A stretch of DNA of 64,000 nt, from positions 19,157 to 83,156 of the forward strand of contig CADWAF010005181.1 of assembly GCA_902984215.1 (NCBI GenBank), read 5' to 3'. Positions 14,627-64,000 of the stretch are shown here, one piece after another (positions within the stretch are counted from its first letter, which is position 1; the number at the start of each line of letters is the position of its first letter). The position numbers were made by a program, and so were the translations under genes. The stretch comes from Willaertia magna. Its lineage: Eukaryota > Heterolobosea > Eutetramitea > Acrasida > Naegleriidae. The notes beneath the pieces are model-generated. The model was not told the DNA's origin. It ran no database searches and saw only the letters and a list, made by a program, of their open reading frames with translations.

Positions 14627-15277
14627 GGTTATTATATTAAAAGTTAGTTGTTTAAGTTAATTGTATTTTTTTCAAAGAATTTTCTATAATCCCTACCCTC
14701 TATTTATAAGTGTTCCAAAAAATTTGTGAATTCGCTCTTTTTGAATCTGTAAGAATATTGCTTGAAGCGAATAATTGACTTCAACAAAGATGAAGAACAA
14801 GAAGGTGAAGGGATTTTTGGAAACTGTGCAATATTCTTATTGATGTGGTGCAATGGCTTACTTGTCTTTACTTGTGACGTAAGGAAGGTGTGCAAAGAAT
14901 AGAAAGTAATAAATCAACTTTGTAAATCTTTACTTCTTTTAATCCCGACTGTACATAACCACCATTGTCAAAATTGGGTGTCAAAGTAAAGTGGTCATCA
15001 CAAAACTTATCCAACAAAACAACTTTGCATAAGTTTTACACAAACAAAGAGTAAAAAAGCAAGAATAGTTTTAAAATAAAATTATAGTTACTAATAGTAA
15101 GCTAAAAAACACATCGGAATATAAAAAGAATCATTAAAAAAAAGTTAAGTTGCCGTTAATTACACCCATTTCCTTTCTTCATTCTAAACCAACATCTTTT
15201 CCACTAAAAACATCTATTGGCTGGCTATCTTATTCCTCAATTCATAAAATTCGCATCAAAAATAGGTCGATAAAAAA
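14627..15277. other. Intergenic region between divergent DDX3 and PA200 genes
   Basis: About 650 bases between two divergent highly conserved genes, so it should contain both promoters. A 63-residue frame on the minus strand (14895-14704) has no recognisable motif and an unlikely composition; I treat it as chance. I see no tRNA boxes, repeats or strong hairpin. The A+T content is moderate compared with the region after 46.4 kb, which is useful as a baseline for non-coding DNA in this genome. Confidence 0.6.
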
Positions 15278-29600: not shown

Positions 29601-31814
29601 TTTCTTTATTTACAAAATCATTTTCCTTTTTAAGTTCTTTTTCTAAATTAATTTTTTCAATTTTTAAATTTTCCAAATTTTTAATTTCATTTTCTACATT
29701 TAAATAAAATTTGTCTTTTTCTAATTTTTGTAAACTATAACTTTCCAATTTAAATTTTATAAATTTATTTTTTAATAAATTAAATTCATTTTTTAATTTT
29801 TCTAAATTTTTTATTTTTTCTTCAAAATTTTTAAAATCTTTAACTTTTGGTTGTAATTCATTTAATAAATTTTCAAACTTTTCTAATTCATTATTTAAAT
29901 TTAAATTTAAATTATTTAAATTATTTATTTTTAAATTTTCTAAATTTATAAATTCAATTAATTCATCTGTACCAATTAAATGTTCTAAATGTTCTAATAA
30001 TTCTATTGGTTTCTTTTTTGTAATGTTTAAAGTATTATGTTGTAAAACTATAAAACGTTCTGGAAAATTAAAATCTATACCAAATTGTTCTAAAAATAGT
30101 TGAATTTCTTTTTTTGTTTTCTTTTCTCCATTTTTAGTATTGTTATATAAATAGTAATTACTTGTAACATTTTTATTATTTTCTAAAATTATTCTTCTTT
30201 CAATTTCAAACGTTTTGTAATCATTGTTATTTAAATTATTATTTGAACTATTTAAATAATATTTAAAATAAACTTTAACATAAACTTCTACTTTTTTATC
30301 TAAAATTTCATTATTTAAAATAAATTGATTAATTAAATTTAATAAATTTTTTGCTCTTAATTGTTTTGAATCAAATCCAAATACAAAACAAATTGCATCA
30401 ATAATATTTGATTTACCACTTTTAAATATTTTTAAATTATAAAAATTATTAAAAAAATACTATAAAAAAAATTGTAAAAATTACCTTCCATTACTTCCAA
30501 TAATACAAGTTAATTCATTTGAAAATGGTCCAATTATAATTTTATTTTTATAACTTTTAAATCCTTTCATTTCAATTTTATTTACCATTAATTTTGAATT
30601 TCCATTTTTATCTTGTTGTTGTTGTAATAGCTTTTCATTAAATTTATTTTCCACTATTTTTGTAAAGATAATTTTGTAAAAATATTTTGTAATAATAACT
30701 TACATTGTAAATAAGTTTCTTCTAATTGATTAAATTCATTATTTATTTCTTCTTCTTCACCTTCTTTCTCTTCTTCATCTAACATTTTTGTATTATCTTC
30801 TTCACTATTATCATTGTCACTACTGCTGTCAATAATCATTTTCTTTTTCGTCTTTTTATCATTTGTAGTAACAGGACTTTCATTCTTCTTTTTATTGTTT
30901 TTTAATAATTGTTTCTTTTTTGTAAATTCTTGTTGTTGATTTTCTCTTTCTTCTACTTGTTTATCTTTCTCTTCTTCTTCTTCTATAATAGTACCCTTCT
31001 TCTTCTTTTCTTTAATTTGTTCTATTAATTGAAATGATGGTAAATTACTATTATCTTCTTCACTATCTAATTCTAGTGAAATGTTATCATTTAATTCTTC
31101 TTTTTGTTCATTATAGTATTCATTTTCATCACTTGTTGAATAATTATCATTTTGTTGTTCCTTTTCTTCTATTTCTTCTTCTGATGACAATGATGATGAA
31201 GATAAATAACCTTTTCTCTTCTTTAAATTTTCTTTTTCTTCTACGTTCTTTACTTTTGTATTATTTTGTTGTTTGTTTTCGTTCTCAATTTCTTCTTCTT
31301 CACTAAAGACCTTTTCATCTTTCTCTTCACTATCACTACTAGTACTACTGATAATGTTACTTCTTTTCTTATTATTAGTCTTGTTCTTCTCTTTATTCTT
31401 TTTGTTTTCTTCCTCTTTTTTATTATTTACTTTTGTATTCTTCTTTTTAGAATTGTTTTTCTTATTATTATCTTTTGTTTCATTGTTAATTTTTTTCTTT
31501 TTCTTATTGTTAGTCAACTGTTGTTGTTTTTTAAAATTTTCTTCTTCTTCTAGTTCAATGAATTCTTCTTCTTCTTCTTCTTCACTAGTAGTAGTTGTAT
31601 CAATAATGGTAGTTTTCATCTTGTTGGTAGTTGACTTATCATTTTCTTTTCTTTTTCTATTATTATTATTATTATTACTGCCAACCTTAATTGCTAATGT
31701 TCCTTTCTTCTTTTTTGTATTCTTCTTTTTGTTTTCTAATAATACAATCTTTTGTTCTTCTTCTTCTTCTCTTTCAGATGACGAAGATGAATCTACAATT
31801 ACCTTTCGTTTCAT
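26685..31814 (-). CDS. SMC-family ATPase, most like condensin SMC4, with a long acidic N-terminus
   Basis: Chromosome-organising ATPase of the condensin core. Four exons, 31814-30704, 30653-30485, 30418-27044 and 26964-26685, all GT-AG and in phase, give 1,644 residues. Exon 1 is a 370-residue tail of alternating acidic, basic and Ser clusters. Then come MVNKIEMKGFKSYKNK, Walker A IIGSNGSGKSN (about 420), the SMC4-like blocks DAICFVFGF and ELLEHLEHLIGT, two long coiled coils, and a hinge at about 930-990 (ENIIGTFNQICNLKNNNYF). The signature LSGGQQAL is created by the last splice (about 1551), followed by Walker B ICFFDELDASLD. SMC4 is preferred over SMC1 because of the LEHLIGT block and FVFG; the C-terminus (LIGVY) fits either. 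The coiled coil has extreme codon bias (AAA, TTT, AAT, TTA). Confidence 0.85.
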
Positions 31815-36122: not shown

Positions 36123-36244
36123 AAGTAGTTGAGCTGGTTATTTTTTTTTAATTATGTGATGGATGACTTTTTGAAGGGAATGACAAGCAGCGAAAATTTT
36201 CGTATTTAAAAAAATTTACAATTAATTGTAAATTATAAAATCAT

Positions 36245-36331
36245 AGGACCGACCGTGGATTGAACACGGGACCTACAGATGGTTTGCAATACACATTGCA
36301 ATCTGCTGCTCTACCACTGAGCTATCGACCC
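36245..36331 (-). tRNA. tRNA-Cys (GCA) with a 15-nt intron
   Basis: Reading right to left: acceptor GGGTCGA (36331-36325) pairs with TCGGTCC (36252-36246), D arm GCTC...GAGC, anticodon stem GCAGA/TCTGT, T stem CCGTG/CACGG with loop TTCAATC, and discriminator T at 36245, the expected base for tRNA-Cys. The anticodon loop becomes TTGCAAA (anticodon GCA) after removing a 15-nt intron at 36295-36281, just 3' of the base after the anticodon, the usual eukaryotic nuclear position. The intron contains TTGCAA, complementary to the anticodon loop, as expected for the pairing that tRNA endonuclease recognises. CCA is not encoded. Confidence 0.93.
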
Positions 36332-36412
36332 ACTGTTTTTGATTAATAAAAGGCCAAATAAGGAGCCAAAGTAATAGGGTTTTGTTTGTCACCCATTTTA
36401 AATATGACAGCA

Positions 36413-43449: not shown

Positions 43450-45870
43450 ATGGAAGTAAAAGAAACTGATTATTTTGAATCATGTTCACGTGGATCAGTA
43501 TATGATAGGTGGAGGTTAAGAGGTGATGATGAAACAAATAGTAATGAAATTAAAAAAACAGTATTTCATAGATATTTAAATGTAGACAAATCAGATGAAA
43601 TTGAAGACGAAGAAGAGTTAGAAGAACCAATTGAAAACTCTGATACGGAATTGGCCATACCAAAATCTTTAGTACCAAACTCACAAAAAGAAAAAAAAGA
43701 TAAAAAAGAAATAAATATTGGTGAAGAAAATGATAAAGATGGTGAACAAAATTTTAAGGAAGATCTTGCAATATTAATTCCTTTTATGTTGAACTATTTA
43801 TTTGAAAATTATGAAAATATTACATATAAAGCAATAGCATATTCTACTGTATTATCATTAGATTATTTAAAGAATTATATAACAAATGAAATTGGGAAAG
43901 ATAATTGGAGAAAAATCATTATTAAAAATAAAGATGATATTCCATCTCCTTTACCAAAACAAACAGTAGAAGAAAATGAAGAACCACTAAAGAAAAAGGT
44001 AAAAGTTGATTCATTAATTCATGAAATATTAATTTATTTACCAATTTTAAATTTATTCACAAAAAAATTTCCAGATATAGTAGTTGATACTAGTGATAAG
44101 AAAGAAGGTGGATCTTTTTCTTTATTAGATTGTTCTTTAAAGAGACAATATACTTTATTTGAAAATGGTGAAAATAAAATTGAAGATGAAGATAGTGAAT
44201 TTTGGTTTTCAAATTGGAAAGATTATATTCTTTACTTATTGTCAAACATAGATTTTATTAGTAATGAAGAACACGAAACACTAAGTTCAAATAATAATAA
44301 TCAAGCATTCACTCACTTTTTATTATTGACAGCTCACTTTATAAAATATTTAAGAAATAAATTATTACCAAAGTATTCATTTAATGAATTTACATTTTGT
44401 TCTGATATGAAACAACATATGGAAAACATTAAAGATGAAGAAATTAGAAATGAGTTGTTGGAATTGAGAGAAAAGAAATGGAAATTTAAATTTGAAATCC
44501 CAACTACTTTAAGTACCTGGTTTACAACCTTTACTAATTTAGAAAATTCATTACAACAAGAAAAAAAGAATGATAAATTAAATGTATTTTTACTACCTAT
44601 TGAATTACAATATGAAATTTTAACTTTTTATTCAGTAAATAAGGTAAAAGATTTATTACAATTAAGATTGATTTGTAAAGAATGGAATAATATAATAATT
44701 TCACCACAAAGGAGCAATCAATTATGGTTGCAATTATGTTTTATTTCTATAAAGAATTCCCCTTTGTATCCATATGTTGGTAAAGATGATATTTATGTTT
44801 ATGGTCCAATAACTTCAGAAGAAAAAGAAATAATTGAAAGAGAAAAGAATGAAAATCTTAATGAAGAATCTACAGTAATGTATAAAAGAACAGTTGTTAA
44901 TCGATTGGCTGGAAAGTTTACTTATGCTCTTTTTAAAGATATTGCAATGAAACAGCAATCAGTCAATCACGAAAGAGATTTGGATGGATTTAAATGTTGG
45001 TATGAAAATATAGGTAAACATTATGCAAAGAAGAATGACCTTGGTTCATTCTTATTAATAGATCCCTTAACTGAAGAAAACAGAAGATATCGTTTTCCAA
45101 GTGTTTGCATTTCTATTTTTATGGATACACAAGACGAAGAAGAATATGAAGAAGAGGATGAAGAATTAGAAGATGAGAAGGAGGAACAAAATTTAGAAGA
45201 AAAAGTAAAGTGTTTAAAGAAAAGAACAAAGTTTGGAGGAAATCCTAATTTATCACTAGAGGACAAGCCTAATAATTTAGGCAGCTTTTTTGGTCAACTA
45301 GATTTAGAGCAAATTGCAGGTCAATCAATGGCTCATGGAGGAATACTACCACAAACAGGAGTGATTTATATATTTATTAAAGATGCACATGTTGACACTT
45401 CTGCTGAATACCCTAAGGAAGTAGAAACTACTTTACTTTATGTCAATCCAACAAGTTCAACAAGTAAAGAAATAACATGTAGTATTGATGTTAACTCCAT
45501 TGATGACGAATATCCATGTGGTGAAGTATGTGAATTACAAAATGGATTAGCTATTCAATATTCAGATAGCTTGTATCCTGGTCATTATGGAAATTGGGGT
45601 TATTGGAAAGATTACATCGCTAGATATTTTGAATTGGCAATGTTATCTTCTTTTAATTCTTCTTATGCAGCGTTTTGTCCTCCTTTAAATGTCCCCTTTG
45701 AACAAAGAAATAATTATTATCAAGTTGTTTTATGTCAAAACTTGGAAAATACAACAGCATTAATAATGGTTGATTTAACTAAAATTAATGAATTATTTGA
45801 AACTGGGAAAATGGTTACACAGTCAAAAATCATTGCTAGTGGTTGCAGATATTACGCGCAAAATGAATGA
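43450..45870 (+). CDS. F-box protein with a DUF1963-like domain
   Basis: Single exon, 806 residues. An F-box lies near residues 380-425: LPIELQYEILTFYSVNKVKD, then LICKEWNNIIIS and LWLQLCF, suggesting a substrate adaptor of an SCF ubiquitin ligase. The C-terminal third has the pattern of the YwqG/DUF1963 fold: TKFGGNPNLSLEDKP, then GSFFGQLDLEQIAG, LPQTGVIYIFIKD and a later TTLLYVNP. A short acidic run (EEEYEEEDEELEDEKEE) precedes it. The N-terminal 370 residues are helical and unassigned. No intron is required. It is the last intact gene before the AT-rich region. Confidence 0.8.
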   Translation: MEVKETDYFESCSRGSVYDRWRLRGDDETNSNEIKKTVFHRYLNVDKSDEIEDEEELEEPIENSDTELAIPKSLVPNSQKEKKDKKEINIGEENDKDGEQNFKEDLAILIPFMLNYLFENYENITYKAIAYSTVLSLDYLKNYITNEIGKDNWRKIIIKNKDDIPSPLPKQTVEENEEPLKKKVKVDSLIHEILIYLPILNLFTKKFPDIVVDTSDKKEGGSFSLLDCSLKRQYTLFENGENKIEDEDSEFWFSNWKDYILYLLSNIDFISNEEHETLSSNNNNQAFTHFLLLTAHFIKYLRNKLLPKYSFNEFTFCSDMKQHMENIKDEEIRNELLELREKKWKFKFEIPTTLSTWFTTFTNLENSLQQEKKNDKLNVFLLPIELQYEILTFYSVNKVKDLLQLRLICKEWNNIIISPQRSNQLWLQLCFISIKNSPLYPYVGKDDIYVYGPITSEEKEIIEREKNENLNEESTVMYKRTVVNRLAGKFTYALFKDIAMKQQSVNHERDLDGFKCWYENIGKHYAKKNDLGSFLLIDPLTEENRRYRFPSVCISIFMDTQDEEEYEEEDEELEDEKEEQNLEEKVKCLKKRTKFGGNPNLSLEDKPNNLGSFFGQLDLEQIAGQSMAHGGILPQTGVIYIFIKDAHVDTSAEYPKEVETTLLYVNPTSSTSKEITCSIDVNSIDDEYPCGEVCELQNGLAIQYSDSLYPGHYGNWGYWKDYIARYFELAMLSSFNSSYAAFCPPLNVPFEQRNNYYQVVLCQNLENTTALIMVDLTKINELFETGKMVTQSKIIASGCRYYAQNE

Positions 45871-46007
45871 GCTTTTTGTAAGGAAAAGAACGTATTCGAA
45901 TAAAAACTGGAAAGGACACTGCTTCAACACACATCAAAGCAATATACCCACTGAAGTAGTTGTATTCTTCATCAATTATTTTGGGGAGTAAATTATGTCT
46001 TTTAAAT

Positions 46008-46395
46008 CAAAAAATTAGTTGTAGTACAACTTGATACAAAGTTTAAAGCTCATAGTTCTGCTGTGAATACAACTTTTTGTAATTTACTTCGTAATGAAAT
46101 AATAATGCTAATCTAGGTAATTAAAGCACCTGAAGGATAATAATTAATGAAAATCATCCATAAAAAGATGTAAATGATAATGAAATATCAGGTGTTTTTA
46201 TTGATTCATTTTGGCTGAAAATTTAAGACCTCGAATTGAAGGTAATTGTTTGTTAGCTGACGAAATGGGTTTAGGAAAAACTTTATAATCAATTACTTTA
46301 TCGCCTTCATCACAAATTAATAATTCAAATATTTCAAAGTTTACGTAAAATATCTGCAGCTATTAACAAGGATTTTGATAAACCAGTTTACGTAA
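46008..46395 (+). pseudogene. Relic of a SNF2-family helicase gene
   Basis: The segment 46253-46285 reads LADEMGLGKTL, the helicase motif I of SNF2/Rad54-type ATPases. The next codon, where the family has the Gln of GLGKTLQ, is TAA (46286-46288), a single C-to-T change from CAA. Upstream and downstream pieces keep coding-like character (VVVQLDTKFKAHSSAVNTTF near 46020; KISAAINKDFDKPVYVN near 46350) but lie in different frames with many stops. The relic sits at the edge of the AT-rich tract and seems to be a partly decayed member of it. Confidence 0.65.
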
Positions 46396-49300
46396 ACTTA
46401 TATTATTTTTTAATTTATAAACTTCTTTGTTTTATTATTATTTTAAATTAAAATTTATTAATTTTTGTTATATTTTTTATAATATTTTTTAAATTATAAA
46501 TAATTTCTTCTTTATTACTTATTATTTTAATAATAATGTATGAGTTTTAAATATTTTTTTTAAATTTATTTTCTTAATATATTTTATTTATTTTCTATTT
46601 TAATTAATGAATCATTAATATTTAAAGTTTTAATTAATTTATTATAATTTTTATTATTTTATTATTTAAATTTGTTTAATTTTTTTTATTTTTTATAATG
46701 TTGCTATAAAATTAATTTTTTAAGATTATATTTAATAAATTTTAATAATTATTTATAATTTTTAGTATTTTTTAATAATTATTAATTTTATAATATTTAT
46801 TAATAATAATTCTTTATAAAATATATTTAATATAAAATTATTTTTTATATTTTTAAATGTAATATATAAATTATTATTAATTAAATTTAAAGTATTTTTT
46901 ATTAAATTATTTAAATTTTTAAAAATTACAAATAATTTACTATATTTCTTTATAAATAAAGATTTTTTTATTTTTTATATTTTAAAACTATTTATTTAAA
47001 ATATTAATATTATAATCTATAAAAAATATATTATATATATTTATTAAATAAATCAGAAATATAAAATTATTATTATTTTAATAAATTAATTATATTAATA
47101 ATTTTTATTTTTTTATAAATTTATTATAAATTTTTATCATATTTGTTATAATTTATTTTTTATTATTATCTTTAATTACTATATTTTTTAAATATTTTAA
47201 AATATAATATTTAAATAAATTATTTTATAATTTATATTTTTTAATTTTTTTATTATAATATCAATTTTTTTTATTAAATATAATATTTAAATCTAAAATT
47301 TTAATGTTTTTATTATTTTATAAATTTAAATATATTTTATTAAATTTTTTAAGTAATTCTGTTAATAAATTATAAATAAAAAAATTATATTTTAATTTCA
47401 AATTATTTAAATTACTTAATAAAAAAAATTAAAAAATAAAATAACTTAAATATAAATTATTTTTATTAATATATAAATAATAAATAATTATAATAAAAGT
47501 ATTTATAAAATTTTATAAAAAATAAACTTTAAATATTATTAAAAATAAAAAATATTACAAATTTAATGTTTTACTATTTTAAATAAAAGATTTTTAAATA
47601 TTTATTTATTTTTTATTAAATTAAATTTAAAATATTATATTATACTAATTTTTTATCTTTAATTAATTATTATTATGATTTTATATTATATTTTAAAAAT
47701 AATATCAGTAAAAATTTAGACTAAATTTTATAAATATTAATAATAAAAAAGTTTATTTAAAGCTAATTTATAATTATGTTAAATATATAGAAAAAAAATA
47801 ACTTAATAATAAAAATAATTATTAATTTGAATGTAAATATTATATTAAAATATTTAAAGTTAAAATATAATATAAAAATTAAAAAATTATCATATAATGA
47901 ATTTAATAATTTAAATAATTTTAATGTATAAAATAATTTAAAATAAATTGTTTTTTATTATTTAAATTTTTTTTATTATTTTTTTAATATAAAAATTATA
48001 TATATTTTTACATTTATATAAAAAAATATATTTTTCAAAAATTTAATAAAAAAATAAATTAAATATATATATTTACTTTAAAAAACCATTATTTTCTATC
48101 AAAATTAATTATTAAAAAAAATAATAAAATAATTTATAATATTTAAAATATTTATTAATTTATTTTTTAGTTAAAATAAAAAATTAAAAAATTTTTAATA
48201 AAAATATTAACTTTAAATATTTTTATTATATAATCTATTATTTTTACTAATTATTAAAAAATAACTTATTAAAAAAAATTTTAATCTCAAAAAATATAAT
48301 ATTTAAAATCTAAAAAATTATTAACTTATTATACTTTATTAATAATCTCTATTTTATTTTTATTATCTTTAGCCATCTATATTTATTTTTGTTAATAAAT
48401 ATAATAATATAAGTCTTAATAAGATTTAAATTTAAGATTTTTTTTATTAATTTTATATATTTATAAGATATTATAATTTTTTTTACTATTATTAATAACT
48501 TTTTACTTATTATAAAAAAATAAAAGTTTTCAATTATATTAATTAAATAATTATAATTTCTGTTCTTTTAATTTAAATTATAAGCAAAAAATAAATTATT
48601 ATTAAATAATTGACTTTTTAATTTCTTTATTTTTTTTTAAAAACAAAAAATAAATATTTTTTTAAGCAAATACATTATAATAATAGTAACAATAATAAAA
48701 AAATTAAGTATGATTGATTGTTGATTATATAATAAATATATTATTTATAATACTTTTATTATTTAATAATTAATTAATTATAATTTATATAAAAAATATT
48801 TATATTGAAATCAATATAATTATTAATAAAATTTTTAACTTTAAATAATTTGATTATTTTTTTTATTTATTATTAATAATAATAAATTATAATTACTTTT
48901 ATTAAATTCTACTATTGACAATTTTTTGAAATTTATATAATAATAAATATTTTGTTTAATAATATAATTAAATTATTAATTTTTTTTATTATAAATTATT
49001 AATTTTTCTTTTTAAATAATAAACAATTAATTAAAATAACAATTTAATTTATTAAAAAAAATAACTTACTTATAGAGAGATAATTAATAAAATATAATAA
49101 TGTAACTTTATTTGTTTTTAATTTTTTAATTTTAAAAAATCTATTTAAGAAAATGGTTTTATTTTATTTTTATTAATAAAAAATGATTTAGTTTATATTT
49201 TAATATTTAAATTTAATATATAATTATTGAGTTTTTAAAATAATAATATTTTATTGAATTTTGATTTTATTTTGAGATAAATTAAATTTTTAAAATTAAA

Positions 49301-52144
49301 AAAATTACTAATGTATCTATTGTAAAATTTTAATTGTTTAATTTTTAAATCTAATTTTTTAACACATAAATATATAATTAAAGGCCAATAAATATTGAAA
49401 TATTAATAAAAATATTAAATTAAATAATATTGATAATAAATTTTGTTATATTTTTTATTTTATTATTTATTATTAACAAATTACTATTAAATTTTCTACT
49501 GTTAAACTATAATATTATTATTGTTTTTTGATTATTTATATTTTATTTTTTGTGTTTATTTTTTATTTTATTATTTAATTATTTATTTTTAAATTAAATT
49601 AATATTAAATTAATATATGAGAGATTTTATTTTTAAAAAATAAAATATTACAAACTTTTACTTTTTTTTATTATAAATATATTAATAAGTTATTTATTTA
49701 TAAAGTAATTAATTAGAAAAGTAAAAATAATTAGTTAATTATATTAATATTAATTAATTAATAATATTTTAATTGTACAATATTTTTATAATTATTATAT
49801 TTGTAAAATCTTTGTTTTAAATTTTTAATTTTTTTTATATAATAATTTTTATTTATAATATTAACAATTTAGCTTTTTTTAAAAATATTTACAAAAAACT
49901 TATTATATTAAAACAATATTAGTAGTATATTTTTTAATAATAAAATTTTACTAATAAATGTATCTATATTAATTTTTTTATTATATTGTTTTAAAGTAAA
50001 TTAAATAAATAATATTTTAAATACTTTTAAATATTAAATTATTTTTTATTTGATTTATTAATTTTTATTTTTTAAACTTTTTTTAAATAATTATTTTTTT
50101 TAAAAATTTTTATAAATTATTTAATTTTTTTTCATTATTATTATTTTTTTCTATTCTTTTTTCTTCCTTTAATAATAACCTACTTATTATTATTTTTTGT
50201 TTTTTTATTAGTATGTTTAAATTTATTTTTTTTTATTTTTTTTTATTAATTAAATTTTAATGTTTTTTAATAAATAAATAATAATTTAAAAAATTAAACA
50301 AATTAATTTATGTGTTTTTATAGAATTATTAAATAAAAAGAAAAACTAAATAAAAAAATTAAAATTTAATCTAATTAATAATAATTCTTCATCAAATTTT
50401 AATAAAACAATAAATTTATTAAATAATTCATTAAATAAAGTAATGAAATTTAATAATGAATTAATTAAATATAAAAAATTATTAATATTAATAAAAATAA
50501 ACATAAAAATAAAAATAAAATTTTTTAATTAAAAAGTATATAAAAAAAAATAAAGAAATTAAGTAATTGAAAAAAAAAATTAAAAAAAAATTAAAAAGTA
50601 AAAGAACAGATTATATAAAATAAGTATATTGATATTATTTAAAGATAGATAATTAAGATTATAAAAAGTTTAAAAATAAAAAAAAGTTAATCTATTAAAA
50701 ATAAAATAAATTATAAAAATAATTTAAAATAAATTAAAGACATTAAATAAAAATTTAAATAAAATAACTAAAAAAATAAAAAAATTATGATAAGACTTTA
50801 ATTATAGAATAATTAAAAAAAAATAAAAAACTAAAAAAAATATAAAAATATAAATAATAAAAAAAAAAGAAAAAAGAAAATAATAATGAAATATAAATAA
50901 TTATAAAAGAAAACTCATTTTTTAATAATGAATATTCTATATTAATAATAAAAGAAACAGTAAAAAAGATAAAAATAAATAAAATATTAAAAATTTTTTA
51001 ATAAATTTTTTAATATCTATTTTTATTATAGTTAATATGAAGAAAAATAAAGAAAAAATTAAAAAAATAAAAAGAAATAAATAAAATGATTTATATTTAT
51101 ATTTAAATTGAAATATTTATTTTTTAATTAATTGATATAATATAATATTTTAAAAAAAATTAAAATATATTTTTAATTGATTTAATATAAAAAAATAATA
51201 TTATTTTAAAAATATTATAGTAGAAAGATAAAAATTGGTTTAATATTAATTAAAAAAATAAAAACTATTTTTTTATAAAAAATCATTATAAACAGTTCTT
51301 TTTTTTTTAAAATAATAACAATAATAAAAAAATAATTAATCTAAATTAATAATATTATTATTTTACAAATAGTAAATATAAAAAAATTATAATAAAAGAT
51401 TTATATATAATTGTATTTTAAAGATTATTTAATAAAAAAAATAAAAAAAATATTATTTTAATTTAATTTTGATTATTAAAAAAAATTTATTATATTTATG
51501 ATTTTATAAAAAATAAATTAAATATTATAAAATTATGAATAGTTTTTTAAATAATTTAAAATAAATAAAAAATAAATATTTAGTTAAATATAAAAATAAA
51601 AAGTTAAATTAAAGTTTTTTTATTAAAAATTATTTATTAATATATTCATAAGAAATAATTAATAATATTTTATATTATTTAATTAAAAAAAATAATAAAT
51701 CTAATAGTAATTATTTTTTTATTAAATTAAAAAATAAATTATATATTTTAATTAATATTTTTCCTTTATTTAATTATTATTATAAATTAAATTTATAATT
51801 TAAAACAATAAAATTATTAATATATATAATATTAATAACCAAATACTTGTTTTTTAATTTAATTTTAAAATATTTGTTAAATATATAAAAAAATTATATA
51901 AAGATATTCTATATTAATAATAGAACTATAATAATAAAAAAAATTAAAAATATTATTTTTTTTATATACTATATAATTATTTTTTATATTCTCTTTATTA
52001 AATTACTTTATCAAAATAAAAAATATTATAATATATTAAAAAAATAAAATATACTCAATTTTTTTTATTATTATTAAAAAATAATTTAAAATCAATTACT
52101 ATAAGTTTTAATAATTTTATTATTATTAATAATAATTTATGTTT

Positions 52145-53320
52145 GAAAATAATGAGTTATTAATAATATTGTTTTATTTAAATGTTTAAATATAGTTTTA
52201 TTGCGATATTTAGTAGATTATAAAAAAATATTTATTGTTGAAAATAATATGAAAATATTATAAAATAATAATTTTAGATATAAACTAAAATATAAAAATA
52301 AATTTTTATTTATTAAATTAAGAAGCACTATTGAATTAAGATTAAAAAATTTTAATAATATAATTAAAGAAATAGTTAATAAATATAAAAATAATATAAA
52401 ATTATATTTTATTATATATGATTAAACTATAAATATTAAATTTTTTTTAAAGACTTAGCTTTTATGTAAAATTAAAGATAAAATAATTAATATAATGATA
52501 AAATTTAAATAAAAAAATAAATAATTTATAAATCTTTATATTAGATAAATTGTAACTAAATTTAATAATATAATAGCTTTACAAAAATTTTATAAATATA
52601 GTAGTATAAATATAATTATATAAGGTAAACCTTAATAAAAGAAATTAGAAAAAAAATAATAAAGTTGTAATTGATTATATTTTTAATATATTAAAAATTA
52701 AGAATAAATTAAAAAATTAATTTATAATAATAATTTTAAAATTATTAAAGGTAAAAAGAAAAAATTATAATTTAAAAGATTAAATATATTTAAATTAAAT
52801 CTATTTATAATAATAAAAATATATTATTTATATTTAAAAAATAAAATAAAAGAATATTTAAATAAAAAGGTTGAAAATAAAGATAGAAATAAAATAAATG
52901 TTTGATAATTATTATGGAGATTAATTATAAATGAATATATAAATAAAATTGAAAGATGAGAAAGAAAAAAAATTATAAAAGATCACTTTTAATTTATAAA
53001 AAAAATCTCAAATATAAATATAAATATAAAACAATTAAAAGTATTAAAAAATATTATAATGATAATGATTTAATTGTAAAATGAAATAATAATATTTATT
53101 ATAATTATATTAAAAAAAATAATTTAAAAAAATATAATTATAGTTGCAAATAAAAAATTAAAAGTATTTATTAAAGTTATATAAAAAAAGAATATAATTT
53201 AATATAAAAGAGATCATGATAAATAATAAATATGATAGTAATAAATATAATAATGAAGATTTTGAAAGAAATTAATATTTTTATAAATATAATAAATTAA
53301 AATATAAGCAAAAAAACAAA
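52145..53320 (+). pseudogene. Hypermutated copy of the tyrosine-recombinase gene
   Basis: Collinear with 56948-58255. The first 300 or so columns align without a gap at an offset of 4,803; by the end the offset is about 4,934, so a little was deleted. In the first 240 columns I count by eye about 42 C-to-T or G-to-A changes (relative to the better copy) and about five others, with no A-to-G or T-to-C. Homology starts abruptly at 52145 (56948 in the better copy), so only the catalytic half is present. The in-frame TAA codons at 56953 and 57064 of the better copy are also TAA here (52150 and 52261). Confidence 0.88.
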
Positions 53321-53339
53321 TATTCTTATATAAACATAA

Positions 53340-54960
53340 TATTATTTATAAAAAATATTTAAAATTTTTTAAATTTAACTAAATTAAAAACTTTAAAAAT
53401 ATATAAATTAATTAACACAAATAAAAATACTTTTAAAATTTTAAAACAATTAAAAGTATTAAATATACTTTATTGTGATTTAAAAGATAAAAAAATGTAA
53501 ATATTTAGTTAATTTAATAATATTATTAATTCCTTTAAATGAAGGTCTTATAAAAAATTGTTTTTAATATTTTAAAAATTTAATAAATTTAAATTACTGT
53601 GATAAAAATTTGAGTAAAGTAATAGTTATAGATGAATTATTATTAAATTATAAATAATTAATAAATATTAACATTTTAGAAAGTAATATATTTGGTAATT
53701 GTTTTAAAAAATTTAAAAATTTAAAGTATTTAAATATTTGTAAAAATATTATTGATGATAGTTTAAGTAATTTAAATAATTTAAAATTATTATGTTTTAT
53801 TAAATATAAAAATATAATTGAAACTTATTTAAAAAATTTATAACAATTATAAAAATTAATTATTAATTTTACTATAATATTTAATTTACAATATATAAAT
53901 TATTTATTTAATTTAAAAGTTTTAAAAATAAAATTAAATATAGAAAATTTAAAAAAATAATGTATATATTAGTATAAAATTTTTAAAAAATTTAAATAAA
54001 TTAGAAGTTTTATAATTAATATTTTATTACAATTCTGGTTTTAATTATAAAAATAAAAATTTTTACAATTTAAAAAATTTAGAATATTTATATATTTATA
54101 ATGTTGAATGTAATTTTAAAGAATTTAAAGAAAAATATTTTTAATATTTAATAAAATTAGTAATATTGTATTGTAATATTGAAATAGATATTTTATTATA
54201 TTTGATAATAAAAAATTTAATTTTAATTTATTTAAAAAATAAATTTATTAATTTTAAAAAAAAATTTTCATATTTAAAAGAACTTAAATATTTATAATTA
54301 ATTAATTGTATAATTGTAATTATAGATAATAATTTAAATAATTTACAACTATTTAAAAATTTAAAATATTTAAAAATTTCTAATTTTACTATTAAAAATT
54401 TAACTATTTACCAAATTTAAAAAAACTTATATTATATTATGTAAAAATTAAAGATAAATAAATAATAAATTTATTAAATTTAATAAAGTTGACATTAAAT
54501 AAATATTTTTTAATTTCTAATGAATGTTTTTTAAGATTAAAAAATTTATTATATTTAAATATTACTTTTCTTAACAGTTTTCAATTAAAGTATTTGTTAT
54601 AATTAAAATAATTATAAAGTTTATATATTTAAAATATTTTATTAGATAACGATTTAATGAAATTAAATAATTTATAGGTTTTAAAATTGAAGGTAAAGAA
54701 AATATAATAAAAATTAAATAATTTTTATTAAATATAAACAAATTAAAGTATATATCTTTGTTTTATATTTAATATTTTTCTAAATATCATATTGAAACAG
54801 TTAAGAATAGAATTAAAAAAGATATTTTTTAAAAATGTTGTTAAAAGTTTGAGATTTTATAATAATAAATAATTTATTAAATGCAATAAATAAATTTAAA
54901 AGTGGTTATAAAATGAAAGATTGTTATTAATAAATTTATTTCATTTTTAGATTAAAAAAT
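53340..54960 (+). pseudogene. Hypermutated leucine-rich-repeat gene relic
   Basis: Short stretches with LRR spacing survive among many stops: ILKQLKVLNILYCDL (about 53440), FKNLKYLNICKN with SNLNNLKLL (about 53710-53790), FYNLKNLEYLYIYNV (about 54060) and LFKNLKYLKISNFTI (about 54345). The recurring aaatttaaaatatttaaa pattern is the nucleotide footprint of the LxxLxxLxL repeats after G+C loss. It directly follows the recombinase relic, so either it was the next gene of the same element or a host LRR family member caught by the same process. The original protein cannot be recovered. Confidence 0.6.
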
Positions 54961-55211
54961 TAAGTTATTAATAAAAGAATTTTAGTCATATATAAGTTTT
55001 ATTTAAATTAAAAAAATAAATGCTATTGTTAAAATAAAAATTTAAAAAATAACCTCAATAAAATACATAAACAGCTTTTAAAAAATCATAAATTATACTA
55101 TTTAATATAATTATTATATTATTTATTATACTTATTTAAAATAATTAAATTTAAAATTAAAAATAATTATAATTTTAAATGATGATCTTTTGATAATTAA
55201 AGAATATTATA

Positions 55212-55246
55212 TTTAGGGTTTGGGTTTAGGTTTGGGTTTGGGTTTT
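55212..55246 (+). repeat. Telomere-like TTTGGG/TTTAGGG repeats, interstitial
   Basis: Five units in a row: TTTAGGG, TTTGGG, TTTAGG, TTTGGG, TTTGGG, followed by TTTT. The G-rich strand points right. The same type of repeat, in the same orientation, ends the window. It marks the sharp right edge of the A+T tract. Confidence 0.8.
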
Positions 55247-55400
55247 CTTTAACCATTTCCCAACCTAATTTGGATAATTTCCCCTTTTTTAGTAGTGTAA
55301 AAAAAATCTAGACCATCCCGAGTACAACATATTAAAAAATTAGGTCACCAAATGCAGTGGTTTAAAAGTTATGATATAGTAAACGATTTTTGTATCCCAT

Positions 55401-55522
55401 GGACTTTGTGAAAATTTCAAAAATTTGCCCAACCTTAGGACATTGCGAAAATTTATAAAAATTTTAGGACATTGCGAAAATTTATAAAAATTTAAGACTT
55501 TGTAAAAATTTATTGAAAATAT
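55401..55522 (+). repeat. Tandem repeat of about 28-29 bp, four degenerate units
   Basis: Units begin with GGAC/AGAC and TTTGTGAAAATTT or ATTGCGAAAATTTATAAA: 55401, 55438-55466, 55467-55494 and 55495-55522. The middle two are almost identical. No reading frame of value; probably subtelomeric minisatellite between the telomere-like repeats and the recombinase gene. Confidence 0.75.
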
Positions 55523-55764
55523 CACTTTTTCAAAAAATTTCAAAATTTATGATATATTTATCATAAATTTATTTAAAAATCCAATTTTTTGAAAATTATA
55601 CAAAATTAAAATTATAAATAAACTTTTTAATTAAAACCCAACCTATATTTAATTTCAGTATTTTTAACATATTAAAAAATATTACTTTATAAAACCCATC
55701 CTACATATATTTTTTTAAAAAATTAAAAAATTAAAATTTATTAAAACAAACAAAAATGAAAATG

Positions 55765-55821
55765 GTAAACATTTCCTTATTTGTCCGACCTAAAAATGCC
55801 AGCCTAAAAAGGAAAGTTGTC
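55765..55821 (+). repeat. Copy 1 of a 52-58 bp conserved repeat
   Basis: Core is catttccttatttgtccg, then acctaaaaatgccagcc, then taaaaaggaaagttgtca. It ends about 70 bases before the recombinase ATG. The tttcctt and aaggaaa ends can pair. Similarity to copy 3 continues for about 40 bases more, up to the A-rich leader, consistent with a shared promoter or a recombination site. Confidence 0.85.
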
Positions 55822-55890
55822 AAGTTTTGAAAAATGACAAAAAAAAGTTAAAAAAAATACGTTAACAGTTAAAAAAATTATTATTTAATA

Positions 55891-58629
55891 ATGAACACTT
55901 CTTCATTTTTTACTGAAACAAACAATAATCAACAAGAACAAACTTTACCAACAATGAACGACATTATTGAAGAATTTATTGAAGGAAATGATTCGGAATC
56001 AAAATATGTTAAAATATTTAAAGATCAATTATTAGAATCCAAAGAAATGGAAGATGTAGAATTTACTGAAAATTTAACAATTAAAGAAACTCGTTATATT
56101 AATAATAATCAAAAAAATCAAAAAAATCAAAAAGAAATTGAAAAATCATTTGAAAAACAAGATTTAAATACTAGTATTAATAATTATTTAGCAGAAAAAT
56201 GGAATACTTTAACTACAGTTATTAATGTTGACAAAAAAGGTCACAATAAAGATTTAAATAAAGAAGACGAAGAAGAAGAAAAAAATGATGATGATAATAT
56301 TGAAGAAATTGCACAAGATTGGTGTGATATGATAGAACAAGTTAATGAAATTCGTTCATTAAAAACAACATCAGGTACAATGTATTTAAAAAATTATGCT
56401 ATGAGACTTTACAAAGAATTTTATGAAAAAAAAATTCAAGATGAAAATTTTAAAGATTATCAACCATTACCATTTCCAATTAAACAATATACTTACGGAG
56501 CTTTTTTATTATATTTAAGAATAGAAAAAAAATATTCACATTCTACCTGTAACTATACATTTTATTATTCCTTTTGTGGCTACCTAAAAGAATTAGGACT
56601 TGGTAATCCATATGCTGAATATGGTAGATTTTTAAAAGAATTATTAAGAGGTCTTTTAAGAAAATATGGACATACTATTGATAAAGTTTTACCATGTTTA
56701 AATATTTATAGAGATAAGATATTACAATATTTAGATTTAAATAATTCTTCAAATTTAAGGACCTACGCTATCTTCAAACAAGCAAGATCAAGAGGACTTC
56801 GTGGAGATTCATTTGAATATGTTAAATTAAGACATTTAAAATGGGAAAAAATTACAAATGTTAAAGATAGACAAGGTAAAGAAAAATTTTTTACGGTAAA
56901 TGTAGATTTAACAATAGTAAAAGATAAGTATTTAGAAAAAGGAGTAAGAAAATAACGAGTTACTGGCGGTATTGATTTATCTAAATGTTCAAATATAGCT
57001 TTATTGCTATATTTAGCAGATTATAGAAAAGTATTTATTGCTGGAAATAGTGTTAAAGTATTATAAAATAATGATTTTAGATATAAACCAGAATGTAAAA
57101 ATGAACCTTTATTTACCAAATTAGGTAGCACTATTGGTTTGGGACCAAAAGATTTTAATAATATAATTAAAGAAGCAGTTGACAAATATGGAAATGATAT
57201 AAGAATAACCTTTAGATCAATGAGGTCTGGCTGTATATGTCAGGCCTTTCTTGAGGACTTAGCTCTTTATGGTAAAATTAAAGATGAAACAATTAATGCA
57301 ATGGTAGAATTTATAGGATGGAAAAATAGACAATCTATGAATCCTTATATTAGATGGATTGTAACTAAATTTAATAATATAACAGCTTTACAAGAATCTC
57401 ATGAACGTGATAGTGTTGAATCAATTATGAAAGCATCAATTAAAGAAATTAGAGAAGAAAATAATAAAGCTGCAATTGATTATACCCCTAATACATTAAA
57501 AATTAAGGATAATGAATTAAAAAAATTAATTTATGATAACAATTTTAAAATTATTAAAAGTAAAAAGAAAAAATTACAATTTAAAAGATTAAATACATTT
57601 GAATTAAGTCCACCTGCGACAATGAAAATATATTATTTATATTTAAATGATAAAATGAAAGAATATTTAAATAAAAAGGCTGGAAGCAAAGGTAGAAATA
57701 AATCAACTGTTTGGCAATCATTATGGAGATCAATTACAAATGAACATGCAGACAAAATTGGAGGATGGAAAGAAGAAGAAGATTACAAAAGATTATTACA
57801 ATATATAAAAGAAAATCCCAAATATAGATATAAATATGAAACAACTAGAAGTATTAAAAAATATTATGGTGGTAATGATTTAATTGCAAAATGGGATGAT
57901 AATATTTATTATAATTATATTAAAGAAAATAATTTAAAAGATATAATTACAGTTGCAAATGATAAATTAAAAGCTCCAATAAGAGTTACACAAAGAAAGA
58001 ATATTCCAAAATTATATACAAAAGAAGATTATGAAAATGATAATAATTTAAGTAATAATAATCAAATAATTTTACCTAATGAAGAAGAAGAAGAGGAAGA
58101 AAATGATAATAATATATTAAATTATAAAAATAAAATAATTCCTAGATTAGCAGTAAATGATGAATATGATAGTAATGAATATAGTGATGAAGATTCTGAA
58201 AGAAATAGATATTTATATGAATATAATAAATTAGAATATAATCAAAAAAATGAATATCAAAAATTAAAACATAAACATTATTTACAAAATAGTAAATTAA
58301 AGAAAAAATAAAAATTAGAAAAACAAGAATTATTAGAATTACATGAAAAACAGATTAATGATTTAAAAATTAAATTTAATCAACAATATTTAATTGAAGA
58401 AGATGATAATAGTGAAGAGGAAATGAATAAAGATTTATTACAAATAAATGATTTATCTCAAGAAAATAATAATTCAGAATTAGATTTAAATCAAAGTGGA
58501 TTAACTATTGAAAAAATTGATAATAATTATTTATTAGATAACAGTTCAGATGAAGATATAATTGAATCTATTAATATTTTAAAAAAAGTAGAAAAAGATA
58601 TTGAAATTATTTATATTGACTCTGATTAA
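55891..58629 (+). pseudogene. Tyrosine recombinase (Crypton/DIRS-like), one frame broken by three TAA codons
   Basis: One continuous frame of 913 codons ending in TAATAA is interrupted by TAA at 56953, 57064 and 58309. Each would be Gln if CAA had mutated by one C-to-T change. Domains: acidic disordered start (1-150); SAM-like core-binding region (about 155-270) with KQYTYGAFLLYLRIEKKY; and the catalytic domain with box I ARSRGLRGDSF (Arg about 306), the box II equivalent RSMRSG (about 441-446, Arg in place of the usual His), then GWKNRQSMNPYIRW with the likely nucleophile Tyr about 486. The catalytic domain spans the first TAA, so a functional protein needs read-through, recoding or an intact allele. 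The tail is charged and poly-Asn. Annotated as a disrupted gene; a nonstandard decoding is the alternative. Confidence 0.75.
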
Positions 58630-58678
58630 TAAGGATTAAATAATTTTTATTGTAACAAATTTTTTTTTTTAAAATAAA

Positions 58679-58730
58679 GTAAACATTTCCTTATTTGTCC
58701 AGCCAAAAATTGCCCACCTAAAAAGGAAAT
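58679..58730 (+). repeat. Copy 2 of the 52-58 bp repeat
   Basis: Same core as copy 1 (catttccttatttgtcca, ccaaaaattgcccacc, taaaaaggaaat). It lies between the ends of the recombinase gene and the convergent minus-strand gene, so it is not at a gene start. With copy 1 it flanks the recombinase gene as direct repeats 2.9 kb apart, the arrangement expected of recombination sites. Confidence 0.85.
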
Positions 58731-58799
58731 TATATAAATAATAAAGTTTTATTAAATACAAATATAAAATAAACAACCTAAAATAAATAATTTAATATT

Positions 58800-60160
58800 T
58801 TAATATTCTGCATCATCATCTTTTATTAACTCTTCATTATTAACAACAAGATGTTCTTCTTCTTCTTCTGAATCTATTACCATTCTTTGACTTAATATTT
58901 GTTCTCTAATAGTACCAGATTTATTAATATCAGTAATTTCTTTTTTATAAAAATTACACCTCCTCAATAAAAACATTAAAACTTCATATTTTCTCATTTC
59001 TATAATCACATCATCAAAAAAAAAAATCCATTTCTTAGTATAATCATTTAAATGAAGATCATCAGTAAACAAAATATTTTTTAAACACTCCATTATTAAA
59101 AATCCACTTTTATAATCAGGAATAGGTGACATATCAATAGTATCTTCTGTAATTGTTAATTTACTTAATTCTTCAGTAGTTAAATTATTTTCACTAAATA
59201 AATGTTTGGATAATGATATAAAAATAAACTGTGTTAACTTAATTGATAAAATATAACAATAAGTAAATTTTTTATCAATTATTACATTTTCATTATTTTT
59301 AATCTCAATAGGATAAAATTGTAATAAAGGTTTTTGACTATTTTCTATAGTGGTTTGTAATAATGAAAAATATAATATTTTCCTTTTGATAACATAAATT
59401 TTTTAACATTAAAATAAATAAGAAACCACCTTTTTGAGGCATTATCAATTTTAAATGGAATAAAAATATAATCAATTAAATTATTATTATTTGTAATAAG
59501 GTTATTAGTTATAAAATTATTTTTAAATAAATCGTTATTATTAATATTATTAATATTTAATAAAGATTTTTCAAATTCTTTATAATCTAAAAAAGCATTT
59601 TTAAAAATATTTAATTCTGAATAAATTTTTTTACTTATAATTAATCAAAAATTTAAATATAAGATTGATTAATATTAAAAATTAAATAATACTTACATTC
59701 CGATATAAGGTACTAATAAATAATTTTTTGTTTTTAAAAATTTATATTCAATATCATATAAATATTTAAAATACATTAAATATAAATCAGAAATACTTTG
59801 TTTTAATACATAAGTATAATTAAAAATATCTAAAATTTCATTTTCATTTAAATATTTATTATAAAAAGGATCTTTTTGTTCTTTTTTAATTTTAATATTA
59901 AAATTATTTAAATTATTTATTAAATTTTCTTTTCCTTTGTTTAAAATATTAGGAAAAAATAAAGTATCATAATTTTTATTTATTGGTGATGATGAATTTT
60001 TTATTTTTTTTAATATTGGTAATAAATTGAATGGATTTGGTATTTTAGGTTGTTTATTTGATTGTTGGGGTTGTTGTTGTTGTTGGGGTTGTTGATTTGT
60101 TGTAGTAGTTTCTTCATTGAATCTGTTGAGTAATTCTTTCTTTGGATTTTGTTGACTCAT
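58800..60160 (-). CDS. Unknown spliced cargo gene of the mobile unit
   Basis: Exons 60160-59697, 59633-59430 and 59382-58800 keep one frame (GTAAGT...TATAAG; a less usual GTGGTT...AAAAG) and give 416 residues. The start is the ATG of MSQQNPKKELL; an earlier in-frame ATG at 60322 would run through repeat copy 3, so I reject it. Low-complexity Gln/Pro start, helical AT-rich middle, and an acidic end (DSEEEEEHLV). I do not recognise the family. IFIPF near exon 2 and SPIPDYKSGFLIMECLKNIL near exon 3 recall the last catalytic block of Ulp1/C48 cysteine proteases, which some transposons carry, but the Cys and His are not in place; this is a weak hint only. Confidence 0.6.
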
Positions 60161-63974: not shown

Positions 63975-64000
63975 TTTATAGGGTTGGGTTTGGGTTTGGG
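63975..64000 (+). repeat. Telomere-like TTTGGG repeats running off the right edge
   Basis: After the last stop codon by only 15 bases, the sequence becomes tttatagggttgggtttggg and continues as TTTGGG to the edge. The G-rich strand runs 5' to 3' toward the right, the orientation of a chromosome end on the right. Whether it is a true telomere or an internal array cannot be told from 26 bases. Confidence 0.7.

Follow-up and report, generated by a model that had tools for sequence, protein, structure and literature searches.

A sharply bounded AT island of 8,810 bp (46396..55205, unstranded) in Willaertia magna is built at least in part from hypermutated repeat relics, whose excess of C-to-T/G-to-A changes is specific to particular copies, with adjacent and same-age controls having much less of it. 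We suggest, at a probability of roughly 0.58, that the tract is a repeat graveyard in which repeat-targeted cytosine methylation in all sequence contexts, followed by deamination, led to an outcome like that of repeat-induced point mutation (RIP). The host, W. magna (Heterolobosea), is related to Naegleria and is not a fungus.

G+C content is 6.9% across the tract vs 25.7% in the rest of the window, by which we mean the whole 64,000-nucleotide stretch of DNA analysed. In 1-kb windows moved in 50-bp steps, the minimum outside the tract was 11.0% and the maximum inside it 9.5%. Both edges are sharp: in 100-bp steps, G+C falls from 27 (46301-46400) to 4 (46401-46500) on the left and rises from 5 (55101-55200) to 32 (55201-55300) on the right, where an interstitial telomere-like TTTAGGG/TTTGGG repeat (55206..55245, + strand) is located. 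The contig itself ends at window position 64000 in a candidate telomere repeat, which was matched by a TTTGGG pattern after a TTTAGGG-based pattern gave no match, which places a probable chromosome end some 9 kb beyond the tract. An earlier note on this DNA had delimited the tract at 46396-55205 as poorer in G+C than intergenic DNA elsewhere, with recognizable gene relics and changes from ancestor-like copies that were almost all C-to-T or G-to-A; the 100-bp profile confirms the coordinates, the composition holds within the 64-kb window, two gene relics (recombinase-like and LRR) were recovered, and the substitution claim is borne out for the closest G+C-normal relatives. Since collinear alignments tie the relics to repeats of other contigs, a foreign or organellar origin was ruled out. 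We also ruled out another genetic code (TAA = Q): TAA does occur at expected-glutamine positions in the LRR relic and in an SNF2 relic outside the tract, but the standard code leaves ORFs as long as 1914 aa open.

The left part of the tract is a relic of repeat F1 (46435..48357, unstranded; 4.6% G+C over 46396-48357), whose matched end lies about 40-80 bp inward of the left edge. Further AT-rich copies of F1 are present on contigs C864 and C104 (72% and 70% identity over about 2 kb), and among the best 40 of 748 candidates scored in the genome search there was no G+C-normal copy, all relatives of the tract's first 1.96 kb being AT-rich. The middle (48358..52144, unstranded; 6.7% G+C) is AT-rich DNA without a clear relative, giving among the best 40 of 748 candidates a few short matches of 73-78% and, for the rest, island matches of 64-69% that are mostly compositional; the many island-island matches at this level were left out as evidence because two AT-rich stretches yield them even in reversed orientation. 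A G+C-normal relative is available for about 2.7 of the 8.8 kb.

The closest comparison is that of recombinase-like relic T (52145..53354, + strand; 8.8% G+C), which carries stops and indels relative to copy A, a G+C-normal element with a recombinase-like gene (55248..60085, + strand; 20.1% G+C) that is about 4 kb away and 80% identical. Copy A, which has relatives B on contig C312 and D on contig C551, has a gene (55891..58311, + strand) that is itself broken, since stops separate its two ORFs (55891-56955 and 57139-58311); one stop is common to it, B and T, and a related recombinase-like gene on contig C235 is open for 794 aa. Searches with the recombinase-like protein returned no Pfam or PDB-sequence match and one weak, unnamed PHROG match (E 0.09), and the first ORF had no protein-search match at E 0.001. 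R...GW...Y-like motifs, read by eye alone and without a tyrosine-recombinase domain match, raise the question of a Crypton- or DIRS-like element.

Unfiltered, relic T differs from copy A by 180 C>T/G>A, 5 C>A/G>T, 0 C<>G, 40 A<>T, 9 T>C/A>G, and 7 A>C/T>G changes. A column filter (columns within 5 of a gap excluded, and purine/pyrimidine agreement of at least 60-80% required in 41 columns, the threshold varying) reduced the comparison from 1204 to 996 sites and left 149, 1, 0, 20, 3, and 3 changes of these types, so that C>T affected 149 of 230 C/G sites and A<>T 20 of 766 A/T sites. Polarizing with copy B gave 96/158 and 12/676, and C>T was alike at all codon positions (58, 72, and 63%). Of 16 new stops relative to copy A in 386 compared codons, 11 are explained by C>T/G>A alone.

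The LRR relic (53392..54831, + strand; 8.4% G+C) has relatives, retained at an identity of at least 69%, on C423 (AT-rich) and on C151, C131, C168, C584, and C552 (14-20% G+C), the last encoding an open 635-aa LRR protein. Against C151, BLAST alignments (277 + 91 sites) yielded 38 C>T, 5 T>C, 0 C>A, and 11 A<>T, and a filtered MAFFT realignment (225 sites) 20, 5, 3, and 10. The pattern appears less clean against the more distant relatives: 48, 13, 14, and 45 for C131, 27, 7, 12, and 27 for C168, and 70, 27, 40, and 117 for C584, in the same order. Polarizing the LRR relics with two relatives left 8-10 C/G sites, too few to use.

Sister copies B and D, the first G+C-normal and the second inside an AT island, show the same bias between copies of one age. 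Over 2589 sites, B has G or C where D has A or T at 227 and the reverse holds at 60 (p = 5e-24), and the non-coding 3' part alone (1381 sites) gives 111 vs 38 (p = 2e-9). Polarized with A, the D branch shows C>T at 129/274 and A<>T at 25/1548 sites, vs 21/165 and 21/1574 on the B branch; in the non-coding part the C>T:A<>T counts are 50:19 for D and 9:10 for B, a contrast less clear than in the C>T fractions. The B branch was also assigned 41 transition-type A/T>G/C changes, which suggests that A and D both lost some ancestral C/G and that the polarized B-branch figures are imperfect. D has 11 new stops, 5 of them not attributable to C>T/G>A alone, and all six new stops of B arose through C>T/G>A, so B is unaffected in a relative sense. 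Two further island copies are less extreme against A (C408: 128 C>T, 39 C>A, 107 A<>T; C772: 150, 42, and 115). Element alignments were kept when they spanned at least 100 columns at 70-99.5% identity, with one partner of at least 13% G+C. The earlier note had held that a lack of C-to-T/G-to-A excess across many copies would count against its proposal; the excess is present in T and D and weaker in C408 and C772.

The context of C loss is nearly flat. Over T and D together, CA was lost at 163/278 sites (0.59), CC at 44/85 (0.52), CG at 11/13 (0.85, n = 13), and CT at 136/262 (0.52; p = 0.06), without the CpA preference of fungal RIP. T alone gave CA 70/100, CC 28/38, CG 7/8, and CT 44/82, with CT lowest (p = 0.03), and D alone CA 93/178, CC 16/47, CG 4/5, and CT 92/180 (p = 0.07). 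Taken together, the two relics gave no sign of a preferred preceding base (p = 0.2), and the changes did not cluster. On the coding strand of T, loss was higher at C (67/83) than at G (82/145; p = 3e-4), and D showed no strand difference (C 76/155, G 129/255).

Predicted enzymes that could write the corresponding mark are encoded by the host. W. magna has two DNMT1-type proteins, P0001 and P0002, with RFD, BAH, and methylase domains; in the 19.2 Mb assembly searched, the gene for P0001 was found and P0002 had no match of its own. The DNMT1 protein is identical to the gene of the genome copy over the compared residues, which left no amino-acid changes from which a neutral spectrum could be read. 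PCQ and ENV motifs of the predicted methyltransferase were read by eye. Three PF00145 matches are divided between two genes, one of DNMT1 type (RFD, BAH) and the other DNMT2-like, with no RID/Masc1-type enzyme recognized among them in the 19.2 Mb searched of a species whose published genome is 36.6 Mb. A TET/JBP search gave two matches, both under the cut-off. In the sister genus, Naegleria gruberi likewise has two DNMT1 genes, with cytosine methylation measured on repeats in all contexts and no dinucleotide preference, according to the available part of PMC12344493. RIP-like decay is unreported for N. gruberi in that part, and the term "point mutation" is absent from the main text of PMC12344493. 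What W. magna shows, by comparison, is the mutational scar expected of such methylation.

We therefore favor repeat methylation and decay, which would explain the pattern with fewer assumptions than RIP. DNMT1-type enzymes would mark repeat copies with 5-methylcytosine irrespective of context, as published for N. gruberi, and the methylated cytosines would deaminate, spontaneously or with help. Silenced copies would decay to about 5-9% G+C and unmethylated dead DNA alongside would not, and a one-generation, homology-triggered mutator would be unneeded. Between half and two thirds of the C/G in the dead repeat copies is gone through C-to-T, and the nearly flat context fits the all-context methylation described in the available part of PMC12344493. 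Silenced transposons of vertebrates and plants decay through methylated CpG, mostly confined to CpG (or CpG/CpHpG). As there, C>T in the W. magna elements is well above other changes; unlike there, CA, CC, and CT are lost almost equally fast.

The earlier note had proposed a RIP-like process in a non-fungal host and had called for a table of substitution types and contexts and for a search for DNMT and RID homologs. Copy-specific C-to-T/G-to-A hypermutation of repeats in a non-fungal genome with a DNMT1-type enzyme is supported. As for RIP itself, CpA is not favored over other contexts, a RID-type enzyme was not recognized in 19.2 Mb of the published 36.6 Mb, and copy A was largely spared. The outcome is RIP-like, which supports the earlier note in part and falls short of RIP proper, a homology-triggered and RID-dependent process. 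As with RIP in Neurospora crassa and other Ascomycota, C:G goes to T:A on both strands of repeat copies, transversions are almost lacking in the tract's youngest comparison, and a sharp-edged AT-rich island of gene relics occurs with a cytosine methyltransferase. Unlike RIP, the host is heterolobosean, there is neither clear CpA preference nor recognized RID/Masc1 in the 19.2 Mb searched, and a related copy about 4 kb away is largely spared; homology triggering and premeiotic timing are features of RIP, and here there is the sequence scar alone.

A true RIP-like mutator, which would recognize duplicated DNA and drive rapid C>T within one or a few generations with a DNMT1-type enzyme in RID's role, is an unlikely explanation. 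It would account for the spectrum of relic T (149 C>T, a single C>A, and no C>G), for the membership of mutated sequences in repeat families (best 40 of 748 candidates scored), for the position of both tract edges near matched repeat ends, and for recent F-box duplicates that are C/T-rich, as expected of a lightly mutated duplication. The available part of PMC12543289 describes a second, DIM-2-dependent pathway in N. crassa, and a review (PMC9246332, available in part) allows that RIP may well have arisen outside fungi. Against this, the CpA preference reported as common to RIP-like defenses in the available part of PMC12543289 is not clear here, copy A at 80% identity was largely spared, and some A<>T change in the compared island copies counts against a demonstrated speed. 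By the same low odds, Heterolobosea would have a genuine RIP-type defense in which a DNMT1-type enzyme is recruited to duplicates and causes fast, any-context C>T on both strands.

That the tract is simply old dead DNA at mutational equilibrium, decaying neutrally as mutation favors AT throughout the genome, is about a one-in-seven prospect. Fourfold-degenerate sites have at most 6% G+C in 8 and at most 9% in 16 of 27 ORFs (of 28 listed, one overlapping ORF being left out), e.g., 5% in a 1914-aa PSME4-like gene that had no match to plasmids; because the AT-richness of such sites frequently matches that of the tract, composition alone proves nothing and cannot by itself separate neutral decay from targeted decay. 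C/T-rich differences are likewise not confined to islands: an open F-box-like gene of 806 aa (43450..45870, + strand) shares 92% identity with a likewise open copy on C78 and differs from it by 115 C/T-type changes in both directions vs 19 A<>T, and by 51 vs 9 at third positions. An AT-rich spacer on contig C34 (2-5% G+C) also had no G+C-normal copy in the search made, though this small island is uninformative because both copies of its local duplicate are AT-rich. What weighs against neutral decay is that dead DNA differs so strongly by copy. Immediately left of the tract lies a dead SNF2-type fragment (45871..46362, + strand; 28% G+C), which was compared over 417 sites with a relative on C78 whose exons are open in the portion available. 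It shows C>T at 6/105 C/G sites and A<>T at 10/312; its A<>T divergence is similar to that of T, yet it retained its C/G (C>T vs relic T, Fisher 4e-24). B and D, of the same age, are strongly unlike even in non-coding DNA, and C>T:A<>T rate ratios are 1.4-7.5 in G+C-normal LRR copies vs 28-61 by codon position in T.

A regional difference in mutation or repair without cytosine methylation, e.g., in late-replicating subtelomeric heterochromatin with poor uracil or mismatch repair, seems improbable. Closeness to the probable chromosome end and changes in all contexts on both strands would suit it, but the SNF2 fragment and copy A, both directly adjacent to the tract, largely escaped, so that the contrast tracks individual copies, with abrupt boundaries, and not the region, and the islands on C551 and C423 have no TTTGGG match on their contigs that would indicate a subtelomeric position. 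The division between relics and controls is itself imperfect: the relics are repeats and SNF2 was spared, yet SNF2 has its C78 relative and repeat copies A and B were largely spared. Attack on elements by a cytidine deaminase of the AID/APOBEC kind, e.g., during transposition, is very improbable, since the C>T excess and the greater loss at coding-strand C in T are set against effects on both strands, no strand difference in D, no preceding-base preference or clustering, and no APOBEC_N (PF08210) match in 19.2 Mb of the published 36.6 Mb.

If the RIP-type defense did prove true, RIP would be ancient in eukaryotes or have arisen a second time outside fungi, and the C/T-rich divergence of the F-box duplication would be a first, mild attack. 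A scar of this kind in Discoba, accompanied by DNMT1-type genes and in a sister genus of an organism whose repeats are methylated in every context, would be a first candidate. It may help explain why G+C in Willaertia is about ten points under that of Naegleria, and it opens a test of whether RIP depends on a dedicated enzyme or is ordinary methylation of repeats carried to an extreme.

In the heterolobosean amoeba Willaertia magna, the AT-rich tract at 46396–55205 has a G+C content of 6.9%, against 25.7% in the remainder of the window, and G+C changes sharply, within about 100 bp, at both its left and right edges. The tract is a patchwork of different parts: a repeat relic (about 46435–48357) with other AT-rich copies on C864 and C104, 3.8 kb of AT-rich DNA lacking any clear relative, a recombinase-like relic (T, 52145–53354), and an LRR relic (about 53392–54831). 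The 5′ repeat is uninformative on kinds of change because its relatives are AT-rich only. The earlier note took the poverty in G+C as a sign of hypermutation by a process like repeat-induced point mutation (RIP); the contrast within the window stands, but as proof it fails, most strongly because fourfold-degenerate sites are often equally AT-rich. Across 27 ORFs of the window, counting both halves of the broken recombinase-like gene, fourfold G+C ranges from 2 to 28% (at most 6% in 8 and at most 9% in 16), so a neutral equilibrium near 5–10% G+C is possible in this genome. An SMC-hinge-like ORF (27040–29748) is open over 902 aa at 14.4% G+C. Low G+C by itself is no proof of hypermutation, and CpG depletion is general, extending beyond the tract (observed/expected is 0.42–0.48 for two of the window's gene regions, 0.43 for neighbouring copy A and 0.20 for the tract). 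Composition being undecided, the kinds of change must decide.

The tract is adjoined by copy A of the same element as T (55248–60085), at a normal 20.1% G+C, with relatives B (C312) and D (C551). Its recombinase-like gene (55891–58311) is interrupted by stops and hence broken too; the label is based on motifs spotted by eye, and Pfam, PHROGs and PDB sequences gave no naming match. One internal stop codon is common to A, B and T, although A/T swaps between A and B are distributed as under selection (127 at third positions, 50 at positions 1–2); readthrough or a two-part gene is possible. Reverse-transcriptase (RVT_1) matches number 76 in the genome copy searched, 58 with in-frame stops, mostly TAA. 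Between the tract and copy A lies an interstitial telomere-like TTTAGGG/TTTGGG stretch (55206–55245). The sequence GGGTTTGGGTTTGGG stands at the very end of contig C846 (window 63986–64000). It is matched 38 times across the genome copy, and nine contigs carry it no more than 60 bp from their start on the minus strand, the telomere orientation. We take TTTGGG as a candidate for the W. magna telomere repeat and the right end of the window as a candidate chromosome end. The control built into this pattern search was uninformative because the pattern reads identically backwards. Contig C34 carries an AT-rich spacer in two local copies (13296–14896 and 9217–10186; L027, L029), each with a 2–5% G+C core and flanked by stretches of normal G+C; the two copies are nearly identical at one end. 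A roughly 110-bp element of 41–48% G+C occurs in several copies (window 36229–36351; loci L061–L064, L067, L076), and ARAGORN placed an unclear tRNA within it at 36245–36331.

In a three-way alignment with B, T differs from A by 180 C>T/G>A, 5 C>A/G>T, no C<>G and 40 A<>T changes before filtering, with 9 T>C/A>G and 7 A>C/T>G in reverse; where A and B agree, the counts are 121, 5, 0 and 29, with 7 and 6 in reverse. In clean alignment columns, C>T (here and below including G>A) affects 149 of 230 C/G sites, with one C>A and no C>G, and A<>T affects 20 of 766 A/T sites. C>T is similar across codon positions 1, 2 and 3 (58, 72 and 63%) and thus bears no visible mark of selection; A<>T is highest at third positions (1.8, 2.1 and 3.6%), and part of it is therefore probably older than the decay. 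The LRR relic behaves similarly against C151: two BLAST stretches totalling 368 sites show 38 C>T, 5 T>C, no C>A and 11 A<>T, and a MAFFT alignment with 225 sites after filtering shows 20, 5, 3 and 10. The claim that the changes are almost all C-to-T or G-to-A thus holds for these two comparisons, but not for the more distant LRR relatives on C131, C168 and C584, whose spectrum is mixed. Island copies on C408 and C772, older or more distant, have a less extreme spectrum.

Just outside the left edge lies a dead SNF2-type fragment (45871–46362, 28% G+C) with deletions and a broken frame; in a relative on C78 the exons are open over the stretch available. The fragment's 417 aligned sites hold C>T at 6 of 105, 5 C>A, A<>T at 10 of 312 and 8 T>C, and its exon changes split about two to one between codon positions 1–2 and 3 (alignment judged by eye), as expected for dead DNA. 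A<>T is similar in the fragment and in unfiltered T (3.2 and 3.5%), whereas C>T reaches 62% in T but 6% in the fragment (Fisher, 4e-24).

A control of equal age comes from B, which is G+C-normal, and D, which lies in an AT island; the two are nearer each other than A. Over 2589 filtered sites, B has C/G where D has A/T at 227 and the reverse holds at 60 (p = 5e-24), and in the non-coding 3′ part only at 111 and 38 (p = 2e-9). When A is used to polarise the changes, C>T falls on 129/274 sites and A<>T on 25/1548 in the D branch, and on 21/165 and 21/1574 in the B branch; the C>T : A<>T ratios differ (p = 2e-5). In non-coding DNA the ratios (50:19 in D, 9:10 in B) differ less clearly, while the C>T fractions (50/117 and 9/80) differ at p = 1e-6. 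The B branch also has 41 apparent A/T>G/C transitions, probably C/G lost in A and D alike, which makes polarisation by A imperfect. Copy B is also touched by the C>T/G>A process: all six of its new stops relative to A arose this way, although this type makes up only 45 of the 545 single-step routes by which A could gain a stop; the figures are 11 of 16 in T and 6 of 11 in D.

Fitting less well is an open F-box pair (43450–45870 and a copy on C78), 92% identical, in which C/T-type differences number 115 and A<>T differences 19, running both ways; third positions alone have 51 and 9. If these came from light hits on recent duplicates, they would favour RIP; if they came from a short-term mutation spectrum that is C/T-rich everywhere, they would favour neutral decay. 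Longer-separated G+C-normal pairs lack the excess: A and B differ by 257 C/T-type and 234 A<>T changes, and for LRR copies on C584, C552 and C151 the polarised rate of C>T is 1.4–7.5 times that of A<>T.

Lost cytosines in T and D pooled show little dependence on the following base (CA 163/278, CC 44/85, CG 11/13, CT 136/262; p = 0.06, with 0.03 for T and 0.07 for D taken separately) and none on the preceding base (p = 0.2), and no clustering of lost C/G sites was seen in either. On the coding strand T lost 67 of 83 C and 82 of 145 G, a difference not found in D. The genome copy has one DNMT1-type gene (C319), whose product shows no difference from W. magna ABK040_005078 over 1004 compared residues, and a gene on C456 that we take to be DNMT2-like from its motif. 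A second W. magna DNMT1-type protein is P0002, and both have RFD, BAH and methylase domains. APOBEC_N had no match in the 19.24-Mb genome copy, and TET/JBP matches fell under the cut-off. This copy, in 894 contigs, with the window at C846:19157–83156, is about half of the 36.6 Mb published for strain c2c maky, so absences from it are weak evidence; that genome has 24.8% G+C, against 33–37% in Naegleria (as given in PMC6892926).

C/G loss by C>T/G>A is copy-specific in the two AT islands, and adjacent or same-age controls are largely spared. Naegleria gruberi is described as having two DNMT1 enzymes and methylation at similar levels in all four dinucleotide contexts, mainly in repeats within H3K9me3/H3K27me3 chromatin (PMC12344493). 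By analogy, all-context methylation of repeats would be the first step in W. magna, and deamination of the methylated repeat cytosines would supply the C>T/G>A changes; we infer this combination as the cause. The decay resembles fungal RIP in its C>T/G>A changes, but it lacks RIP's usual context, and no enzyme of RIP's kind was recognised in the half-size genome copy. A CpA preference is said to be common to RIP-like defences (PMC12543289). A review lists RIP from fungi, chiefly Ascomycota, and calls it the sole known exploitation of methylation's mutagenicity to date (PMC9246332); RID is described from fungi only (PMC13297926), and diatom DNMT4 enzymes may be its relatives (PMC9998398). Among the papers listed, with subscription journals and preprints outside the search, no title or abstract opening reports RIP-like decay in a heterolobosean. 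We regard the W. magna case as RIP-like decay in Discoba.
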